Source: Salipaludibacillus daqingensis
GTDB taxonomy: Bacteria; Bacillota; Bacilli; Bacillales; Salisediminibacteriaceae
Reading direction: 5' to 3'
DNA length: 64,000 nt
NCBI RefSeq assembly: GCF_029891575.1
Contig: NZ_JARZHF010000004.1
Coordinates: 62,001-126,000, forward strand
Shown: positions 1,555 to 47,053 of the stretch, one piece after another
How the letters are laid out: every line of letters starts with the position of its first letter
Position numbering within the stretch: position 1 is the stretch's first letter
The notes under the pieces: generated by a model
Told to the model about the DNA's origin: nothing
Database searches by the model: none
What the model saw: the letters and a program-made list of their open reading frames with translations, nothing else
Made by a program: the position numbers and the translations under genes

Positions 1555-2844
1555 TTAACCTCTAATAGTAGCAAATGCTTTCTCTGCTGCTTCAATCGTG
1601 CGGTCAATATCTTCTTCTGTATGTTTCGTTGATAAGAACATTCCTTCAAACTGAGAAGGCGGTAAAGACACACCGTTTTCAAGCATTAGTCGGAAATACT
1701 GTTTGAACATATTAAGATCTGAACTAGAAGCCGTTTCAAAGTTAACAACTTTCTCGTTCGTTAAGAAAAAGCCAACCATCGATCCTGCTCTCGTCACATA
1801 ATGAGGAATATCATGCTTTTTCGCTGCTGCTGCTAACCCTTCAGCAAGGCGATCACCGATACGGTCAAAATGCTTGTAACTCTCTGGAGTTAGTTGGCTA
1901 ATCGTTTCATACCCTGCAGACATCGCTAACGGATTACCGGAAAGTGTCCCTGCTTGATAAATATTTCCTGCCGGTGCGATACGTTCCATAATTTCTCGTT
2001 TCCCACCGAAAGCTCCAACTGGTAATCCTCCACCTATTACTTTTCCAAGACACGTTAAATCTGGCGTAACACCTAATTCTCCTTGAGCACAATGATAACC
2101 AACACGGAAACCTGTCATCACTTCATCGAAAATCATTAATGAACCATGATCTTCGGTAATGGATCGAACACCTTCAAGAAAACCTTCTTCAGGTCGAACA
2201 ACCCCCATGTTTCCAGCTACGGGCTCTAATATAACTGCAGCAATCTCATCACCAAAATTATCAAAAGCTACTTGCAAACTTTCAAGATCGTTATAAGGGA
2301 CGGTTAACGTATTGCTAGCAACTGATGCTGGAACTCCTGGACTATCAGGGAGTCCAAGTGTTGCAACTCCAGATCCTGCTTTGATCAATAAGGAATCACC
2401 ATGGCCGTGGTAACAGCCTTGAAATTTCAAAATTTTATCTCTACCCGTATATCCTCGCGCAAGTCGTAATGCACTCATAGTCGCTTCTGTACCTGAATTC
2501 ACCATGCGCACTACTTCAATAGATGGCACGCGGTCAATAACTAATTCAGCAAGCTTCGTTTCAAGCTTATGAGGAGCGCCAAAACTTGTTCCTTTTTCAG
2601 CTGTTGCTTTCAACGCATCAATAACTTGGTCATCTGCATGGCCGTGAACCAAAGGTCCCCATGAAAGAACATAATCAATGTATTCATTCCCATCTACATC
2701 CCAAATGTGTGAACCTTTGCCGTGATCCATATACACAGGATCCATATCAACAGACTTGAATGCTCGAACCGGACTATTCACTCCTCCTGGCATGAGTGGT
2801 TTTGCTTCGTTAAATGCTTGACTTGATTGTTCCCATTTCATCAT
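1555..2844 (-). CDS. hemL: Glutamate-1-semialdehyde 2,1-aminomutase
   Basis: This PLP enzyme converts glutamate-1-semialdehyde to 5-aminolevulinate, the second step of the C5 haem pathway. The 429-residue length is normal. Visible motifs are [15 protein letters not shown] at the N-terminus, the [13 protein letters not shown] cofactor region, [10 protein letters not shown], and the PLP-lysine motif [14 protein letters not shown] with Lys near 268. The ATG at 2844 is preferred over an in-frame GTG at 2853 because the GTG lies inside the ribosome-binding site AAAGGTGG. It is the last gene of hemA-hemX-hemC-hemD-hemB-hemL, 16 bases after hemB, and ends at a strong terminator. B. subtilis also has a paralogue (gsaB), but the operon position supports hemL. 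Confidence 0.97.
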
Positions 2845-2860
2845 TAAAGCCACCTTTCAC

Positions 2861-3844
2861 TTATTCGTCTTCTTTTATCCATGTAGCAATATCTTTAGCA
2901 AAGTACGTCAATATTAAATCAGCACCTGCTCGTTTCATACTCGTCATTTTTTCCATAACAATTGCTTTTTCATCCACCCAACCGTTTTGCGCCGCGGCTT
3001 TAATCATTGAATACTCACCGCTAACGTTGTACGCAACAATCGGAAGGTCATGCCGAGTTCGCACATCGCGAATGATGTCTAAATAAGAAAGAGCTGGTTT
3101 AACGATAAGGAAATCGGCTCCTTCATCAACATCTGACTGCGCTTCTCGAAACGCTTCAAGTCTATTTGCTGGATCCATTTGATACGTTTTACGATCGCCA
3201 GATTTTGGTGAACTATGAGCCGCATCTCTGAATGGTCCATAAAAAGCAGAAGCATATTTCACTGCATAACTCATGATCGGAATATCTGTATAACCAGCTT
3301 CATCTAACCCTTGGCGGATCGCCGCAACAAAACCGTCCATCATATTCGATGGAGCAATGATATCCGCCCCCGCTTCTGCTTGTGATACAGCTGTTTTGGC
3401 TAATAAAGCTAACGATTCATCGTTGATAATTTCTCCATTTTGTACAACACCACAGTGACCGTGGTCTGTAAACTGGCACAAACAAGTATCTGCAATAACA
3501 GTTAACTGAGGGTGACGTTGTTTGATTTGTCTCGTTGCCTCTTGAACGATTCCGTTATGATCGTACGCACAAGTACCTACGTCATCTTTATGAGTGGGAA
3601 TACCAAACAAAATCAATGACTCAATTCCAACTTCCACTGCTTCATCCACTTCTTCGTTTATTAAATCTAACGACCTCTGAAAAACTCCCGGCATTGACGG
3701 GACCTCATTTTTTATATTTTCCCCTTCTAAAACAAAAAGAGGGTATATCAAATCTTCTTTTCTTACATGCGTTTCTCTAATCATTGAACGGATTCCTGGT
3801 GTTCTTCTTAGTCGACGGTGCCGACGGAATTCAAGACTGGACAT
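2861..3844 (-). CDS. hemB: Porphobilinogen synthase (delta-aminolevulinate dehydratase)
   Basis: The enzyme condenses two 5-aminolevulinate molecules into porphobilinogen in the cytoplasm. The protein has 327 residues, normal for the family. The zinc-binding cysteine cluster is visible ([14 protein letters not shown], Cys121, Cys123, Cys131), so this is the zinc type. Both active-site lysines are present: [16 protein letters not shown] (Lys196) and [13 protein letters not shown] (Lys249, Schiff base). The start has the RBS AAAGGAGGA. It lies between hemD and hemL in the haem operon with gaps of only about 15 bases, so the genes are probably co-transcribed. Confidence 0.97.
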
Positions 3845-3859
3845 GTAACATTTCCTCCT

Positions 3860-4648
3860 TTAAATATCAGCTTGTTCCTCTTCTACTATATCTAACATAG
3901 ATTCGATCGTATAATTATCTGGAACGAGTACCTTAAGAATATCATAACGTGAAAGGGCTTCTGCTGTCACTCGCCCAATCGCAACAAACATTATCTTCTC
4001 TTTTATCGAGGAAATAACATTTTCATCAACTTGTTTAAAAAAAGAGTGAACGATAGATGGACTCGTTACTAATACAATATCCAACTCGTTATTTTTTAAT
4101 AGATGATTTAGTTTTGTTTGATATTGATCGTTCATCACTGTTTCATAAGCCACCATTTCATAAACAAACCGCCCTGAATCAAGCAATGTATCTACTAATA
4201 CTTTTCTAGACTGACTGCTCCTAGGATAAAAAAAACTATCGGTCGAGTGTGATGCATTTATAAGGGAAACAGCTAAATGCTCCGCATCAAATTTCTCTTC
4301 CGGACAAACATCTACATAAAATCCGTACTCGCCAACAATTTCTTTTGTTTTCTCCCCTACGACGGCGACCTTCTTAGATCCTATAACTTTTGATACTTCA
4401 AACCCACATTCCTCTAATGCTTCGCACGTATAGTGAAAGCTATTCACACTAGTAAAAATAAGCCAATCACTTTTCATTATTCTCATTAATTCTTTGTTTC
4501 TTTGTTGGATATTTTCAGGAGGTTGAATGGCAATGAGGGGAATTTCAATAGAAATTCCCCCTCGTCTTTCAATCTCATATGTTAAAGAATTAGCTTGATG
4601 ACCCGCTCTTGTATTTAAAAATTTCAGTCCACGAAGTGAGCTCATCAT
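3860..4648 (-). CDS. hemD: Uroporphyrinogen-III synthase
   Basis: HemD closes and inverts ring D of hydroxymethylbilane to give uroporphyrinogen III. Sequence in this family is poorly conserved, so the call rests on length (262 residues), weak motifs (N-terminal LNTRAGHQANSLTYEIE, DWLIFTSVNSFHYT, DIVLVTSPSIVHSFF, MFVAIGRVTAEALSRY near the C-terminus) and position between hemC and hemB. The start is the first ATG of an ATG-ATG pair 6 bases after the RBS GGGGAG; an upstream in-frame TTG at 4660 overlaps the RBS and is unlikely. Confidence 0.92.
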   Translation of the reverse strand: MMSSLRGLKFLNTRAGHQANSLTYEIERRGGISIEIPLIAIQPPENIQQRNKELMRIMKSDWLIFTSVNSFHYTCEALEECGFEVSKVIGSKKVAVVGEKTKEIVGEYGFYVDVCPEEKFDAEHLAVSLINASHSTDSFFYPRSSQSRKVLVDTLLDSGRFVYEMVAYETVMNDQYQTKLNHLLKNNELDIVLVTSPSIVHSFFKQVDENVISSIKEKIMFVAIGRVTAEALSRYDILKVLVPDNYTIESMLDIVEEEQADI

Positions 4649-4663
4649 AAATCTCCCCAATTA

Positions 4664-5596
4664 TTAATCTAACTCTTCTTTTACTTTATCAAGAACTTCC
4701 TTTGCCCCTTCAGATAACATTTTTTCTGCTGCTTGTTTTCCAATTGCAACAGGATCGTCACCCTTAATCGATTCTTTAAATATCAACTTTCCGTCTGGAG
4801 ATGCTACTAACGCTGTTAAAGAAACGTCTCCATCACTTTCTAGCTGGGCATATCCAGCTATCGGCACTTGACATCCGCCTTCTACTGTATGAAGAAAAGA
4901 ACGTTCTGCCGCAACCGTTCTCGCTGTTTTTGCGTCATTAATATGTGCTAACAGTTCCAACAATTCCTTATCATCTTCACGACATTCGATGCCAAGAGCA
5001 CCTTGACCTACGGCTGGTAAACAAATTGTCGGATCTAAAAATTCCGTGACAATATCTTTTGTCCAACCAACTCGTTCAAGACCTGCGGCTGCTAAAATAA
5101 TCGCATCAAATGTCCCCTCTTCTCTACACTTCCTTAATCGGGTGTCAATGTTTCCACGAATCCAATGAATGTTCAAATCAGGTCGTTGTGCGAGCACTTG
5201 GGAACTACGACGTAAACTACTCGTTCCTACTGTCGAACCTGCTGGCAACTCCATGAGCGTTTTTCCACTGTTGGAAATGAATGCGTCTCTAGGATCTACA
5301 CGGTCTGGTACTGCACCAATTGTTAACCCTTCTGCCATCTGAGAAGGTAAATCCTTCATACTATGAACGGCCATATCAATCTCACCGTCGTACATCGCTT
5401 TTTCAATTTCTTTTACAAAAAGCCCTTTTCCTCCGACTTTAGATAATGTTACATCGAGAATTTTATCTCCTTTTGTAACAATCTCTTTAATTTCAAACTC
5501 AAATGGGAGGTTCAACTGATTTAATTGATCAATTACCCATCTCGTTTGTGTCATCGCTAAGTTACTTTTTCTCGAACCAATGATTACTTTTCTCAT
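4664..5596 (-). CDS. hemC: Hydroxymethylbilane synthase (porphobilinogen deaminase)
   Basis: HemC polymerises four porphobilinogen units into hydroxymethylbilane. At 310 residues it is full length. It starts with the typical [16 protein letters not shown] and carries the catalytic aspartate in [11 protein letters not shown] (Asp82), [10 protein letters not shown] and [12 protein letters not shown] in the substrate cleft, and the cysteine that holds the dipyrromethane cofactor in [12 protein letters not shown] (Cys242). It precedes hemD by 15 bases. The 140-base gap to hemX upstream is unusually long for this operon but shows no clear promoter or hairpin. Confidence 0.97.
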
Positions 5597-8230: not shown

Positions 8231-8716
8231 ATGAAATCAAATCAGGCACTCCCAGGTATCATTTTAGTCGTTATTGGTATCTATTTTTTATCTCAACAAT
8301 TTGACTTCTCCCTTCCTTATTCGGATATTCTTTTGAAATGGCCTTCAATGTTGCTATTATTCGGTTTAGTGTTATCTTGGCAAGGTTTTTCCAACCGTGA
8401 TGACAATAAGATGTTTTCTGGCGTCGTCTTGCTTGGCTTAGGAACATTATTTCATGGTGTACATACGTTTGAATATTGGACGTTTCATTGGCCTTACTTC
8501 ACATTAATTATTTCATTTGCTTTTTTCTTGAAATACTTTGTGAATAAACGAGATGGAATCACTACAGGTGTAATCTTGCTGATCATTTCTGTTACGGCAC
8601 TATTTTTCTCATCAATCACTCAGTGGTTGAATTCTATCCACTCAAGTTTTGAGTCTTTTTGGCCGGTCATACTCATTCTCATTGGATTATATTTATTATT
8701 CTTTCGCAAAAAATAA
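8231..8716 (+). CDS. ysxD: YsxD-like small integral membrane protein
   Basis: A 161-residue protein with four to five hydrophobic segments (starting QALPGIILVVIGIYFLSQQF, then LLLFGLVLSWQG, GVVLLGLGTLFHGVHTF, GVILLIISVTALFFS and a last helix ending LLFFRKK). Size, repeated GIxLLxxG helices and the place between hemA and engB match YsxD-type proteins; function is unknown. ATG 8231 is chosen because the RBS AAGGAG at 8214-8219 is only two bases from the alternative ATG at 8222. It is divergent from the haem operon, so 7963-8230 holds both promoters. Confidence 0.75.
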   Translation: MKSNQALPGIILVVIGIYFLSQQFDFSLPYSDILLKWPSMLLLFGLVLSWQGFSNRDDNKMFSGVVLLGLGTLFHGVHTFEYWTFHWPYFTLIISFAFFLKYFVNKRDGITTGVILLIISVTALFFSSITQWLNSIHSSFESFWPVILILIGLYLLFFRKK

Positions 8717-8823
8717 TTATTCTGTTATACACAGGATATAGCATTTCTATCAATGTAGATGTGATTTTGCTCACCTTTAGAATGAAAAAATTTGAACAAA
8801 ATAGAAAGCTTCAATACTTTATA

Positions 8824-8855
8824 AAAAGGATGCGACCGTTGGGTCACATCCTTTT
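8824..8855. terminator. Bidirectional terminator between ysxD and engB
   Basis: The stem AAAAGGATGCGACC / GGGTCACATCCTTTT has T/A runs on both sides and lies between two converging genes. Confidence 0.8.
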
Positions 8856-8889
8856 CCTTATTACTTGTTGTCAGAATTGCTAAAAATCA

Positions 8890-9531
8890 TTAAAGCTCTT
8901 CATCATTTTCTTGCTCTTCATCTTCTTTGAAATAACGCTCTTCTTTTGAAAATAGTAATTGTGTAATTTCTTTCCAAGCTCGTTCTTTTCCTTGAGCTGT
9001 CTCAGCAGAAAATAGGATGATAGGATCTTCTTGTTTCACTTGAAGGCCTTCTCTGATTTGTTTAATATGTTTATCCCATTTTCCTTTAGAGATTTTATCT
9101 GCCTTTGTTGCAACGATAATAACCGGAAGCTCATGATATTTTAACCACTCATACATCATTTTGTCATCCTCTGTCGGGTTATGACGAGAATCAATCAGTT
9201 GTACGACACCTTTTAGCTGCCTTCTCGTTTCAATATAGCCTTCCATGACACGACCCCATGCTTCTCGTTCTTTTTTGGATACTTTTGCATATCCGTAGCC
9301 AGGTACATCTACAAAGTGAAAACGATCATTTATGATATAAAAATTTAATGTTTGAGTTTTACCTGGTCGTTGAGACGTTCTCGCTAAACCTTTTCTTGTT
9401 AACAAAGTGTTAATAAAGGAAGACTTACCTACATTCGAACGGCCTGAAAGAGCCACTTCAGGGAATGGGCCTAAAGGAAATTGATGTTCTTTCGCTGCAC
9501 TTATAACTAACTCTGCGTTATGAATTTTCAT
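8890..9531 (-). CDS. engB: Ribosome-biogenesis GTPase YsxC/EngB
   Basis: An essential GTPase that acts in late assembly of the 50S ribosomal subunit. The G motifs are clear: GRSNVGKSS (residues 30-38), the switch region ending in G3 [10 protein letters not shown] (75-84) and ATKADK (141-146). The tail from about residue 195 is very acidic ([11 protein letters not shown]), slightly longer than in B. subtilis. The ATG overlaps the lonA stop by four bases (ATGA), showing translational coupling to lonA as in other Bacillus. Confidence 0.96.
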
Positions 9532-45151: not shown

Positions 45152-45742
45152 TTAATTATTTTTACTGAGCCCTTTAAGCAACATATAATGAATGGTTTCT
45201 GCAAGTGGGGCTAATGCATAACGATGATCTTTCATAACCCAATTTGTCACCACTTCATCTATAGCACCAAATATTAACTGGCGAGCAATTCGATGGTCTA
45301 ACCCTTCTTCAAAAACTCCTGTTTCCGTTCCTTCTTTCAAAACGGAATCAACAAGAGTTAGATAACCTTTTAATACTTCATTCACTTTATGTCGAACAGA
45401 GATGTTTGATTGACGAAGCTCCAGCTGGGTAACAATTGCTAAATCATGATCCATTTCTAACTGCATGAAGTGCATTTCAATTAAGATTAATAATTTTTTT
45501 TCAACAGATGGCTCATCTTTCATCTTTTCTTTAATCTTCTCAACAAAATGTCCCATTTTTTCTTCAAACAAAGAAATAAGGATATCTTCCTTATTTTTGA
45601 AGTATAAATAGATCGTTCCATCTGCAACACCAGCTTCTTTTGCGATCTTTGAAACTTGTGAATGATAATAACCATTTTCTGCAATGACCTTCACTGCTGC
45701 ATCAATAATTTGCTCATATTTTTGGCCTCTTTTTTTTCCCAT
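45152..45742 (-). CDS. fadR: TetR-family fatty acid degradation regulator FadR (YsiA)
   Basis: A 196-residue TetR-type repressor. The HTH (about 10-57) reads IIDAAVKVIAENGYYHSQVS, KIAKEAGVADGTIYLYFKNK. In B. subtilis FadR represses beta-oxidation genes and is released by long-chain acyl-CoA. A perfect-consensus FadR operator sits 33-50 bases upstream, so autoregulation is very likely. It leads fadR-fadB-etfB-etfA. In B. subtilis lcfA precedes fadR in the same operon; here about 1.3 kb of other sequence separates them. Confidence 0.94.
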   Translation of the reverse strand: MGKKRGQKYEQIIDAAVKVIAENGYYHSQVSKIAKEAGVADGTIYLYFKNKEDILISLFEEKMGHFVEKIKEKMKDEPSVEKKLLILIEMHFMQLEMDHDLAIVTQLELRQSNISVRHKVNEVLKGYLTLVDSVLKEGTETGVFEEGLDHRIARQLIFGAIDEVVTNWVMKDHRYALAPLAETIHYMLLKGLSKNN

Positions 45743-45774
45743 CGGATCACTTCCTCAATCGATTGCTACATAAA

Positions 45775-45792
45775 TGAATGATTGTTCATTCA
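45775..45792. promoter_or_regulatory. FadR operator upstream of fadR
   Basis: TGAATGA-TTGT-TCATTCA is a perfect 7-bp inverted repeat with four-base spacer, matching the Bacillus FadR consensus. It lies 33 bases before the fadR start. Confidence 0.88.
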
Positions 45793-45931
45793 TATTTTCA
45801 TTCTAGAGTATTCTTTTCCTTCTGTCAATTGCAAAGATGTTTTTCTATATTTTGGTGAATAAAGGAAATTAGGTCGGGCAAAGTAAGTATCAATTACAAA
45901 CAACTCAAACCATCTATTTAGGGGCATTATC

Positions 45932-46290
45932 ATGCAAGCGAAAACGACAGAGTATCCTTACTTACCTTAGAAAATATTTCTCTACTCTTCTCTATTCTGG
46001 TTAGCAATCGGTATGACCTATCGCTTCATACCATCCTTGCAATTAATTTGGCCTAACCTACTAGCATTTGGTCCTTTTCAACTCGTATTCCAATATGATC
46101 GAATTCACCCTATTCATAAAATATTGTTTTATTTGGTTGGCTCAGAATGGTTAACATTGGTACTCTATTCTATGTTATTCCTAAACTGTGCAAGAATCAA
46201 CTGTCTTTTCAAAAAATAGCTTATGGTTTAGGTATTATGTGGAATTTAATCGTAATCGCTGGAACGAAGAATGGCGTAGAGAACATCTCA
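45932..46290 (+). pseudogene. ccoN: Eroded ccoN/fixN (cbb3-type cytochrome c oxidase subunit I) fragment
   Basis: Three frames together give a recognisable CcoN N-terminal part. After a stop at 45968 the next frame reads SSLFWLAIGMTYRFIPSLQL and YDRIHPIHKILFYLVGS (compare FGRLRPxHTN in CcoN). A frameshift near 46175 leads to LFYVIPKLCKNQLSFQ and KIAYGLGIMWNLIVIAGT, which match the YYVxPRLC... and ...WNLxIVxGT region of CcoN. The catalytic histidine helices are lost. The start MQAKTTEYPYL survives. It is non-functional. Confidence 0.75.
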
Positions 46291-46302
46291 TTAATCCCTT
46301 AA

Positions 46303-46416
46303 AAAGTTTTACCTGGATCATTTATGCCCAAGTACGACTATTTAAGTGAATACGATTTAGTAGCCTAATTAATGAGTTTGAAACCTTCAGAAACAGAAGG
46401 AAGACCTGCTAAATAG
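46303..46416 (+). pseudogene. ccoO: Eroded ccoO/fixO-like cytochrome c subunit fragment
   Basis: Directly after the ccoN remnant the frame reads KVLPGSFMPKYDYLSEYDLV, A, stop at 46366, then LMSLKPSETEGRPAK. This resembles the C-terminal end of CcoO-type cytochrome c subunits (PxSxMPxYxxL...DLxALxxYLxSL). The expected gene order ccoN-ccoO with large internal deletions explains both fragments. About 145 bp more (46417-46561) have no clear frame; LGLNTEQIKAGKDYVETL may be a further decayed piece. Confidence 0.6.
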
Positions 46417-46561
46417 TCTTAAATGAAGTGATGGAGAAATGCCTTCTTTACATGCTTAGGATTAAATACAGAACAAATAAAAGCTGGGAAAGATTATGTT
46501 GAAACTCTTTAGCTAGATGTTATTAGGAATTTGAGTATTTATTATTGAGGAGGTATTTATA

Positions 46562-47053
46562 ATGGATAAACATCTTATCGCTGTATTCCAAGGGTTACAT
46601 CAAGCCGAAGAAGCATTTCATGAATTATTAACGATTGTGCCGAGAGATCACATTTCTTTTATTCACAAACAACAAGATGGGAAGGAGATAGAAGAAGCAT
46701 CGTTGGATCACCCATTAAATAGCATACTTACAGGAGGCGCATTAGGTGGAGTTCGAGGAGCTATATTCGGCATGTCAACATTTTTGTTTCCTGGTATGGG
46801 TGTTCTTCTAGCTGCTGGGCCACTCTATGGAGGTATTGCAAGTATGACGTCAGGAGGAATTAGTGGAGGATTAGTGGATTTAGGTATAAACCGGTATGAA
46901 GCAGAGAACATTGAAGAACATTTGAAGCGAGGTAGTGTGATTGTTACCGTTGAAGTGAAGAACAGCCAATTCCAAGCTGTTTTTGACTTACTAAAAAAAT
47001 ATCATCCTGCTTATTTATCCGAGGAAACGATATCACCAGATGGTTATCAGTGA
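46562..47053 (+). CDS. Small glycine-rich protein of the general stress 17M/YflT type
   Basis: A 163-residue protein with an N-terminal alpha/beta part (LIAVFQGLHQAEEAFHELL), a glycine-rich hydrophobic centre (ILTGGALGGVRGAIFGMSTF, FPGMGVLLAAGPLYGGIASM) that could insert in a membrane, and a C-terminal alpha/beta part with SVIVTVEV. The layout matches heat- or general-stress proteins of the YflT/DUF1269-like group, whose function is unknown. RBS GAGGAGG precedes the ATG. It stands alone between the ccoN fossil and lcfA and converges on lcfA. Confidence 0.7.
   Translation: MDKHLIAVFQGLHQAEEAFHELLTIVPRDHISFIHKQQDGKEIEEASLDHPLNSILTGGALGGVRGAIFGMSTFLFPGMGVLLAAGPLYGGIASMTSGGISGGLVDLGINRYEAENIEEHLKRGSVIVTVEVKNSQFQAVFDLLKKYHPAYLSEETISPDGYQ

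Follow-up and report, generated by a model that had tools for sequence, protein, structure and literature searches.

The window analysed here is the whole 64,000-nucleotide stretch of Salipaludibacillus daqingensis contig NZ_JARZHF010000004.1, in which the divergent fadR and the convergent lcfA flank the decayed remains of an operon. The features of this locus are as follows (window coordinates):

45152–45742, minus strand: fadR, intact gene of a TetR-type regulator; next to the lost operon and divergent from it
45775–45792, no strand assigned: palindrome TGAATGATTGTTCATTCA resembling a FadR box, located between fadR and ccoN in their common upstream region; agrees at 14 of 14 fixed positions
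45800–45828, minus strand: promoter-like TTGACA-N17-TAGAAT directed toward fadR, 11 of 12 consensus positions
45932–46253, plus strand: ccoN remnant, start region to nt 326, with a stop at codon 13 and a 1-base deletion
46172–46200, minus strand: candidate regulatory element TTGATT-N17-TAACAT directed toward fadR, inside the ccoN remnant
46254–46415, plus strand: ccoO remnant, 3' end from nt 364, abutting ccoN via a ~1.43-kb deletion
46393–46512, plus strand: ccoP-like remnant, final 120 nt including the stop, preceded by a ~0.37-kb deletion
46562–47053, plus strand: DUF1269, the operon's fourth gene, still open over 163 codons
47096–48943, minus strand: lcfA (long-chain acyl-CoA ligase), an open frame that runs convergently to the lost operon

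Alignment to the intact operon of a congener identified positions 45932–46512 as a fossil of a cbb3 oxidase operon with remnants of ccoN, ccoO and ccoP. A preliminary description of this DNA had already proposed such a fossil between fadR and lcfA, in which a CcoN N-terminus is followed at once by a CcoO C-terminus and in which stops, a frameshift and a deletion of most of ccoN and ccoO are visible. This picture was borne out: the peptides it quoted are present at that place in three forward frames with stops between them (translation of 45932–46560), and the intact operon aligns piece by piece. Specifically, in a map to the intact locus of Salipaludibacillus sp. CUR1 (L070), ccoN nt 28–326 correspond to window positions 45956–46253 with the single-base deletion inside (blastn: 299 bp at 75%, E 2.1e-55), ccoO nt 364–536 to 46254–46415 (174 bp at 70%, E 2.6e-16), and the end of ccoP, starting at nt 331 and including its stop, to 46393–46512; about 1435 bp and 374 bp of congener DNA are absent at the two joints. 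The end of ccoP together with DUF1269 gave a 649-column blastn match (66%, E 1.9e-43), and the 18-aa end of the ccoP remnant, LGLNTEQIKAGKDYVETL, is 83% and 89% identical to its counterparts in two congeners. The ccoP piece and the operon membership of DUF1269 are additions to the preliminary description.

At the protein level, searching the whole genome with the intact congener CcoN returned two matches at this locus (E 2.6e-23 and 2.6e-21; 64% and 63% identity) with stops inside, in agreement with the heme-copper oxidase identity first read from the fragments. The fragments alone gave E 2.9e-4 against Pfam COX1 (20.2 bits, below the 34.8-bit cut-off), weak matches to NCBIfam cbb3 subunits I/II (E 7e-4) and, for the CcoO piece, only E 0.08. 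Since such fragment-only profile searches are too weak to decide, the identity was settled by the congener's intact operon. The window copy retains ~580 bp of ~2.4 kb, carries stops and a frameshift, and is without open frames for CcoN, CcoO or CcoP; no intact ccoNOP was found elsewhere in the assembly (its three COX1 matches and the CcoN search of the whole genome). The presence of a true fossil of a cbb3-type oxidase operon in the window is confirmed, far beyond chance.

The preliminary description had pointed to relatives as the place to look for an intact ccoNO, and the intact operon indeed lies at exactly the same place in Salipaludibacillus sp. CUR1 (G002; L030, L070) and S. aurantiacus S9 (G003; L031, L071). 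It consists of ccoN (465 aa), ccoO (172–178 aa), a single-heme ccoP-like gene (149 aa) and DUF1269. CcoN is a heme-copper subunit I (PF00115, COX1; 264.6 bits vs a cut-off of 34.8), CcoO is a FixO protein with one CHTCH motif (PF02433; 113.4 vs 29.6 bits), and the CcoP-like protein matches PF13442 (Cytochrome_CBB3; 43.9 vs 27 bits) and has one CLGCH motif in its 149 aa. CcoN matches five solved sequences, with 9g6b_A best (E 3.8e-78); two of them carry the name cbb3 or CcoN and the other three only ‘cytochrome-c oxidase’. The same five entries also head the 17 CcoO matches, where each bears the name cbb3 subunit II or O. The His motifs HTN, YGHN, GPHH and GHxH, as well as the YY after YGHN, are conserved in the alignment of CcoN to 9g6b_A; ligand roles are ascribed to such motifs. 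CcoN misses the cut-off of the NCBIfam ccoN equivalog TIGR00780, its second-best NCBIfam model (306.8 vs 583.15 bits), and is, judged by its sequence, a divergent CcoN. Canonical CcoP has two hemes, and the third subunit here departs from this with its one heme motif. Given this single motif and the missed equivalog cut-off, we refer to the enzyme as a cbb3-like variant. Like the known ccoNOQP/fixNOQP operons, it combines a COX1-type CcoN, a single-heme CcoO (FixO) with a C-terminal Met motif (SIMPRY, persisting in the fossil as SFMPKY) and then a c-type CcoP-like protein. It differs from them in that the ccoO–ccoP spacing (43 bp in L030) leaves no room for ccoQ, the third subunit is short and single-heme, the operon includes an extra gene, DUF1269, and keeps a constant site next to fadR and, in most cases, lcfA, and the window copy has decayed.

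We found the order etfA-etfB-fadB-fadR / ccoN-ccoO-ccoP-DUF1269 / lcfA, with cco divergent from fadR, in six families; cco is intact in the two congeners, Anaerobacillus, Aneurinibacillus, Brevibacillus dissolubilis and two further families. Fad-linked CcoN was found in 15 genomes (2 Salipaludibacillus, 5 of the Anaerobacillus family, 5 Aneurinibacillus, B. dissolubilis, G437 and G438). In all 15, fadR is divergent from and adjacent to ccoN; DUF1269 then follows in the 14 that can be judged (one contig ends), and lcfA lies beyond cco in 12 (one contig ends, and two are without lcfA within the 2.9–3.7 kb examined). Several of these loci are further alike in carrying trxA, uvrC or both on the fadR side, with mutS2 past lcfA. 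Within the genus, fadR is 80–90% identical in the seven congeners searched, and lcfA occupies the same position in both intact congeners. No fadR match was found in the flanks examined of the other CcoN loci fetched. The fad-linked CcoN sequences form one clade with a support of 100/100 (16 rows from 15 genomes). The CcoN tree splits into lineages matching the grouping of FadR, whose own tree follows family and not cco presence (e.g., the B. dissolubilis FadR falls inside the rows of its own family). Divergence is also similar across the locus: against Anaerobacillus (L072), identities are 75% for CcoN, 69% for FadR and 72% for LcfA, and against Aneurinibacillus (L074–L076) they are 60–62% for CcoN, 54–55% for FadR, 60% for LcfA (L076) and 66% for EtfB (L074, L075). 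The same gene order in six families, together with a cco divergence close to that of the flanking proteins, indicates that the arrangement is old. In the open-licence PMC literature, as far as it was accessible, we found no report linking cbb3 to fadR or lcfA in Bacilli, which is weak evidence of absence. At one locus of the Anaerobacillus family (G163, L205), duf350, lcfA2 and ccoO each match in at least two offset pieces (about 2513–4941 and 8465–8985), which looks like sequencing frameshifts or early decay.

Several histories could have produced the fossil. Our preferred reading is that cco has probably stood between fadR and lcfA since ancient times, passed on by vertical descent with many losses. 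The preliminary description had instead argued that an insertion split a single lcfA-fadR operon before the insert decayed. In B. subtilis, lcfA-fadR-fadB-etfB-etfA form one operon, and its genes, order and direction match both sides of the fossil; here, by contrast, cco, divergent from fadR and convergent with lcfA, separates these two genes, and fadR has a promoter-like site and a FadR box of its own. Most of the cco-lacking loci tabulated (some genomes being listed more than once under different loci) do have lcfA upstream of fadR with no cco. A recent insertion into the operon of this lineage is nevertheless highly improbable, and the earlier claim is not supported: the arrangement with intact cco, DUF1269 included, recurs in six families with shared outer flanks in several, cco identities between lineages match those of the flanking proteins, and scraps of ccoN occur on both sides of the genus.

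We consider it unlikely, if still a serious alternative, that the cassette arose once and spread by homologous recombination through its fadR and lcfA flanks. Such spread would account for a very patchy distribution: among 397 genomes sampled from the window's order there were 18 CcoN matches at E <= 1e-60, seven of them fad-linked; among 398 sampled from the class there were 27 at E <= 1e-120, eight of them fad-linked; and in the order of G508 one of 39 genomes has CcoN at E <= 1e-185. In the 35 genomes of the window's own family, this CcoN is intact in two (G002, G003) and a fossil in the window; another member (G034) has a distant CcoN at 30% identity. The CcoN and FadR trees, however, show no recent cross-family transfer, and the fossil and scraps demonstrate that losses do happen. 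Whether by descent or by old transfers, the decay in the window is the loss of a long-standing operon and not of a fresh insertion. Nor is it credible that the operon works and only seems broken through errors of sequencing or assembly; the genome is a draft of 27 contigs, but about 1.43 kb and 0.37 kb are missing at the two joints, and no intact copy was found elsewhere in the assembly.

Within Salipaludibacillus, a concatenated tree of ten proteins placed the window's genome and G007 as sisters (support 98) and recovered the clades G001/G005/G006 (100) and G002/G003 (100), the latter with intact operons. The branching order of these three groups had a support of only 41 and their split from G004 and the rest 60 (some rows miss genes, G010 uses one locus for both lcfA columns, and supports were read from the Newick string). 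We compared 25 fadR–lcfA gaps besides that of the window, three genomes being entered twice. Scraps of ccoN were found in G006 (59 bp, 58.1 bits vs 31.0 for the best of 40 shuffles), G005 (56 bp, 39.2 vs 26.5) and G007 (53 bp, 35.6 bits, and a DUF1269 piece at 37.4; shuffles 30.1), while the 47-bp match in G001 (27.4 bits) falls below its shuffles at 33.7. The G004 gap, which is 5.7 kb long, has no operon and no clear cco match (31.9 vs 31.0), and none of the 20 other gaps (17 genomes of other genera) was clearly above its shuffles, the nearest being L128 (26.5 vs 25.6).

Codons of the fossil and the intact congener give a dN of 0.133 and a dS of about 1.6 (116 codons), and fadR of the same species pair a dN of 0.088. 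Most of the fossil's divergence thus seems to have arisen while the genes still worked, a rough and qualitative dating given that dS is near saturation. By this reckoning the decay is probably late relative to the divergence of the species, with two deletions, small indels and stops wrecking the operon. Since the window fossil is fresh and the G001/G005/G006 gaps are almost stripped, we infer at least two separate losses; cco was probably lost more than once in the genus, the tree alone not fixing the number. The erosion in the window also shows how a compact lcfA-fadR arrangement can arise by loss of cco.

One part of ccoN has outlasted the rest, i.e., a segment of ~47 bp common to five decayed Salipaludibacillus loci (the window and four congeners). 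The element TTGATT-N17-TAACAT within it has no other match in the window, where 0.01 would be expected. It occurs once each in 33 of 205 loci, all of them covering this part of ccoN or its scrap (the window, G001, G002, G003, G005, G006 and five Anaerobacillus-family genomes); G007 has one changed base (TACCAT), and the element is absent from G004. An alignment of the G001, G005 and G006 gaps revealed three conserved islands (fraction of identical columns in 30-column windows): the fadR promoter with the FadR box (0.7–0.9), the ccoN scrap (0.57–0.73) and the lcfA end (0.77–0.87), with values of 0.43 or below between them. No other cco remnant was detected beside the segment in these three genomes, and the nearest possible beneficiary is fadR. 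When the fadR and lcfA ends were trimmed, all 10 pairwise comparisons among the five decayed loci placed their best ungapped 47-bp match on the segment; comparisons involving G007 rose only slightly above their shuffles (10 each), the one with the window excepted (33 vs 27).

The same stretch stands out in working genes. Across seven intact ccoN (two Salipaludibacillus and five Anaerobacillus-family sequences, in which L070/L071 and L072/L073 are near-copies), 32 of 287 codons for invariant amino acids are identical throughout, among them all four codons under the two hexamers (Y82, V83, N90, Q91). The densest 16-codon window of identical codons, 79–94, contains 8, a density reached in 2 of 2000 within-amino-acid permutations (the per-amino-acid fractions include the tested codons themselves); the fad-linked CcoN of other families lack the NQ residues and were left out. 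A plain sliding-window measure of synonymous conservation gave the same peak, at a modest height (0.59 vs 0.54 for the next). Viewed as a sigma-A promoter, the element has a spacer of 17 and hexamers at 4/6 each (8/12); a promoter scan of the window with a threshold of 9/12 omits it and reports the strong proximal site TTGACA-N17-TAGAAT. That the segment encodes a small peptide (+1 frame, reading ATG TTA ... at several loci) is unlikely, as no ribosome-binding site was seen by eye.

These comparisons show nucleotide-level constraint on the segment, both in working ccoN and after the gene's death. We infer that it may be a cis-regulatory element kept for fadR although the oxidase is gone, a candidate distal promoter or dimeric operator of fadR-fadB-etfBA. 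There is close to an even chance that the shared remnant is mere leftover DNA, e.g., from a shared ancestral deletion. As members of one clade, G001, G005 and G006 may have inherited a single deletion, G001's match to ccoN is weaker than its shuffles, the element has 8 of 12 sigma-70 consensus positions and is missing from the scan report, and G007 carries TACCAT with pairwise matches narrowly above shuffles except against the window. Leftover DNA would not, however, readily explain why the segment is 57–73% identical in all three gaps of that clade when their surroundings are at background, why it recurs in the separate lineage of the window and G007, or why synonymous constraint in intact ccoN peaks at the same codons. 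Our own broader proposal is tentative: that Salipaludibacillus and Anaerobacillus ccoN carries an antisense cis-element (codons ~79–94) which controls fadR-fadB-etfBA and is kept after oxidase loss, and that the fad-linked cbb3 enzyme is an old beta-oxidation respiratory module in Bacilli. If this is true, fatty-acid oxidation genes would be controlled from inside an oxidase gene, and bacterial ‘pseudogene’ DNA would be maintained for a neighbour, which would explain the same 47 bp in several decayed loci.

Upstream of fadR, the FadR box (scored against the B. subtilis consensus) reaches 12–14 of 14 positions in all 15 cco loci tabulated, compared with one in 500 random 250-bp sequences reaching 12. 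It also precedes fadR in nearly all cco-lacking loci tabulated; in this table 23 locus ids, mostly repeats, were left out beforehand, some genomes are listed under several loci, and two Aneurinibacillus repeats (L099, L102) stand under the cco-lacking label. With nearly every tabulated fadR having a box regardless of cco, we rejected the box as evidence for FadR control of cco. A block like TTTTGGAGAATAAGGAAA, seen by eye upstream of ccoN (L070 5820–5997, L072 3704–3934 and visible in window 45743–45931), is a candidate ccoN control site in Salipaludibacillus and Anaerobacillus.

We hold it to be very probable that a ccoN-ccoO-ccoP-DUF1269 operon long stood between fadR and lcfA and recently decayed; a ~47-bp segment within its remnant behaves as if kept for fadR. 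The operon would have encoded a cbb3-type (C-class) heme-copper oxidase and been transcribed away from fadR. Two deletions took away what followed in ccoN, the first part of ccoO and the bulk of ccoP, and the pieces that survive are broken by stops and a frameshift. By homology, CcoO and the single-heme CcoP-like subunit of the intact enzyme would pass electrons from cytochrome c to the heme-copper centre of CcoN, where oxygen would be reduced. Its fixed place beside fadR, fadB (enoyl-CoA hydratase), etfBA and lcfA suggests a role in respiring fatty-acid electrons, along a route that would lead from fatty-acid oxidation through ETF, menaquinone, a bc complex and cytochrome c to the oxidase. 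From its neighbourhood alone, cco appears to have served electrons from fatty-acid oxidation, and it may have been co-regulated with the fatty-acid oxidation genes. That six Bacilli families have a conserved cbb3 enzyme within their beta-oxidation genes suggests that this pathway has an electron outlet of its own; taken by itself the fossil is ordinary, and it is the long-standing fad-linked cluster and the persisting element that make the locus noteworthy.

The fourth gene of the operon remains open. Window DUF1269 matches PF06897 (30.8 bits vs a cut-off of 26.9) and is 62% identical to the intact-operon copy, with a dN/dS of about 0.07–0.11 at near-saturated dS, which is consistent with continued constraint. 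Relaxed selection after oxidase loss was looked for and not seen, the window and intact-operon copies being 53% and 54% identical to Anaerobacillus. In G007, DUF1269 (L032, 1042–1455) is an open frame of 137 aa without a Pfam match, 31–32% identical to its relatives, and is probably decaying or remodelled. A structural model (mean pLDDT 62) has strand-helix-strand ends around a poorly predicted, glycine-rich middle, and a Foldseek search with it returned nothing significant. Its top matches, 8k9e_D and 6btm_D (E 0.018 and 0.052; TM 0.34–0.38), are chain D of Alternative Complex III (ActD, DUF3341), part of a respiratory complex. The similarity is not significant and the model is poor in the middle, so this is a hint, and a lead only, that DUF1269 may be an accessory respiratory subunit.

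The preliminary description had also suggested that the lineage lost a high-affinity oxidase. The cbb3 enzyme is indeed lost, with the qualification that the genome keeps subunit I of a caa3-type oxidase (in an operon with a heme-motif CoxII upstream), two subunit I genes that are ba3-like as read from their frames, and two bd-type CydA. Across eight Salipaludibacillus genomes, grouping by score and length assigns the second ba3-like gene to G000, G004 and G007; it was not among the matches of G001, G002, G003, G005 and G006, and cbb3 is present only in G002 and G003. This pattern is suggestive of replacement of cbb3 by the second ba3-like oxidase, in a sample of only eight genomes. In G000 that gene (G000:C5:211488-212846; L003) has CoxII and SCO-like neighbours, and the other ba3-like match of G004 has an internal stop.
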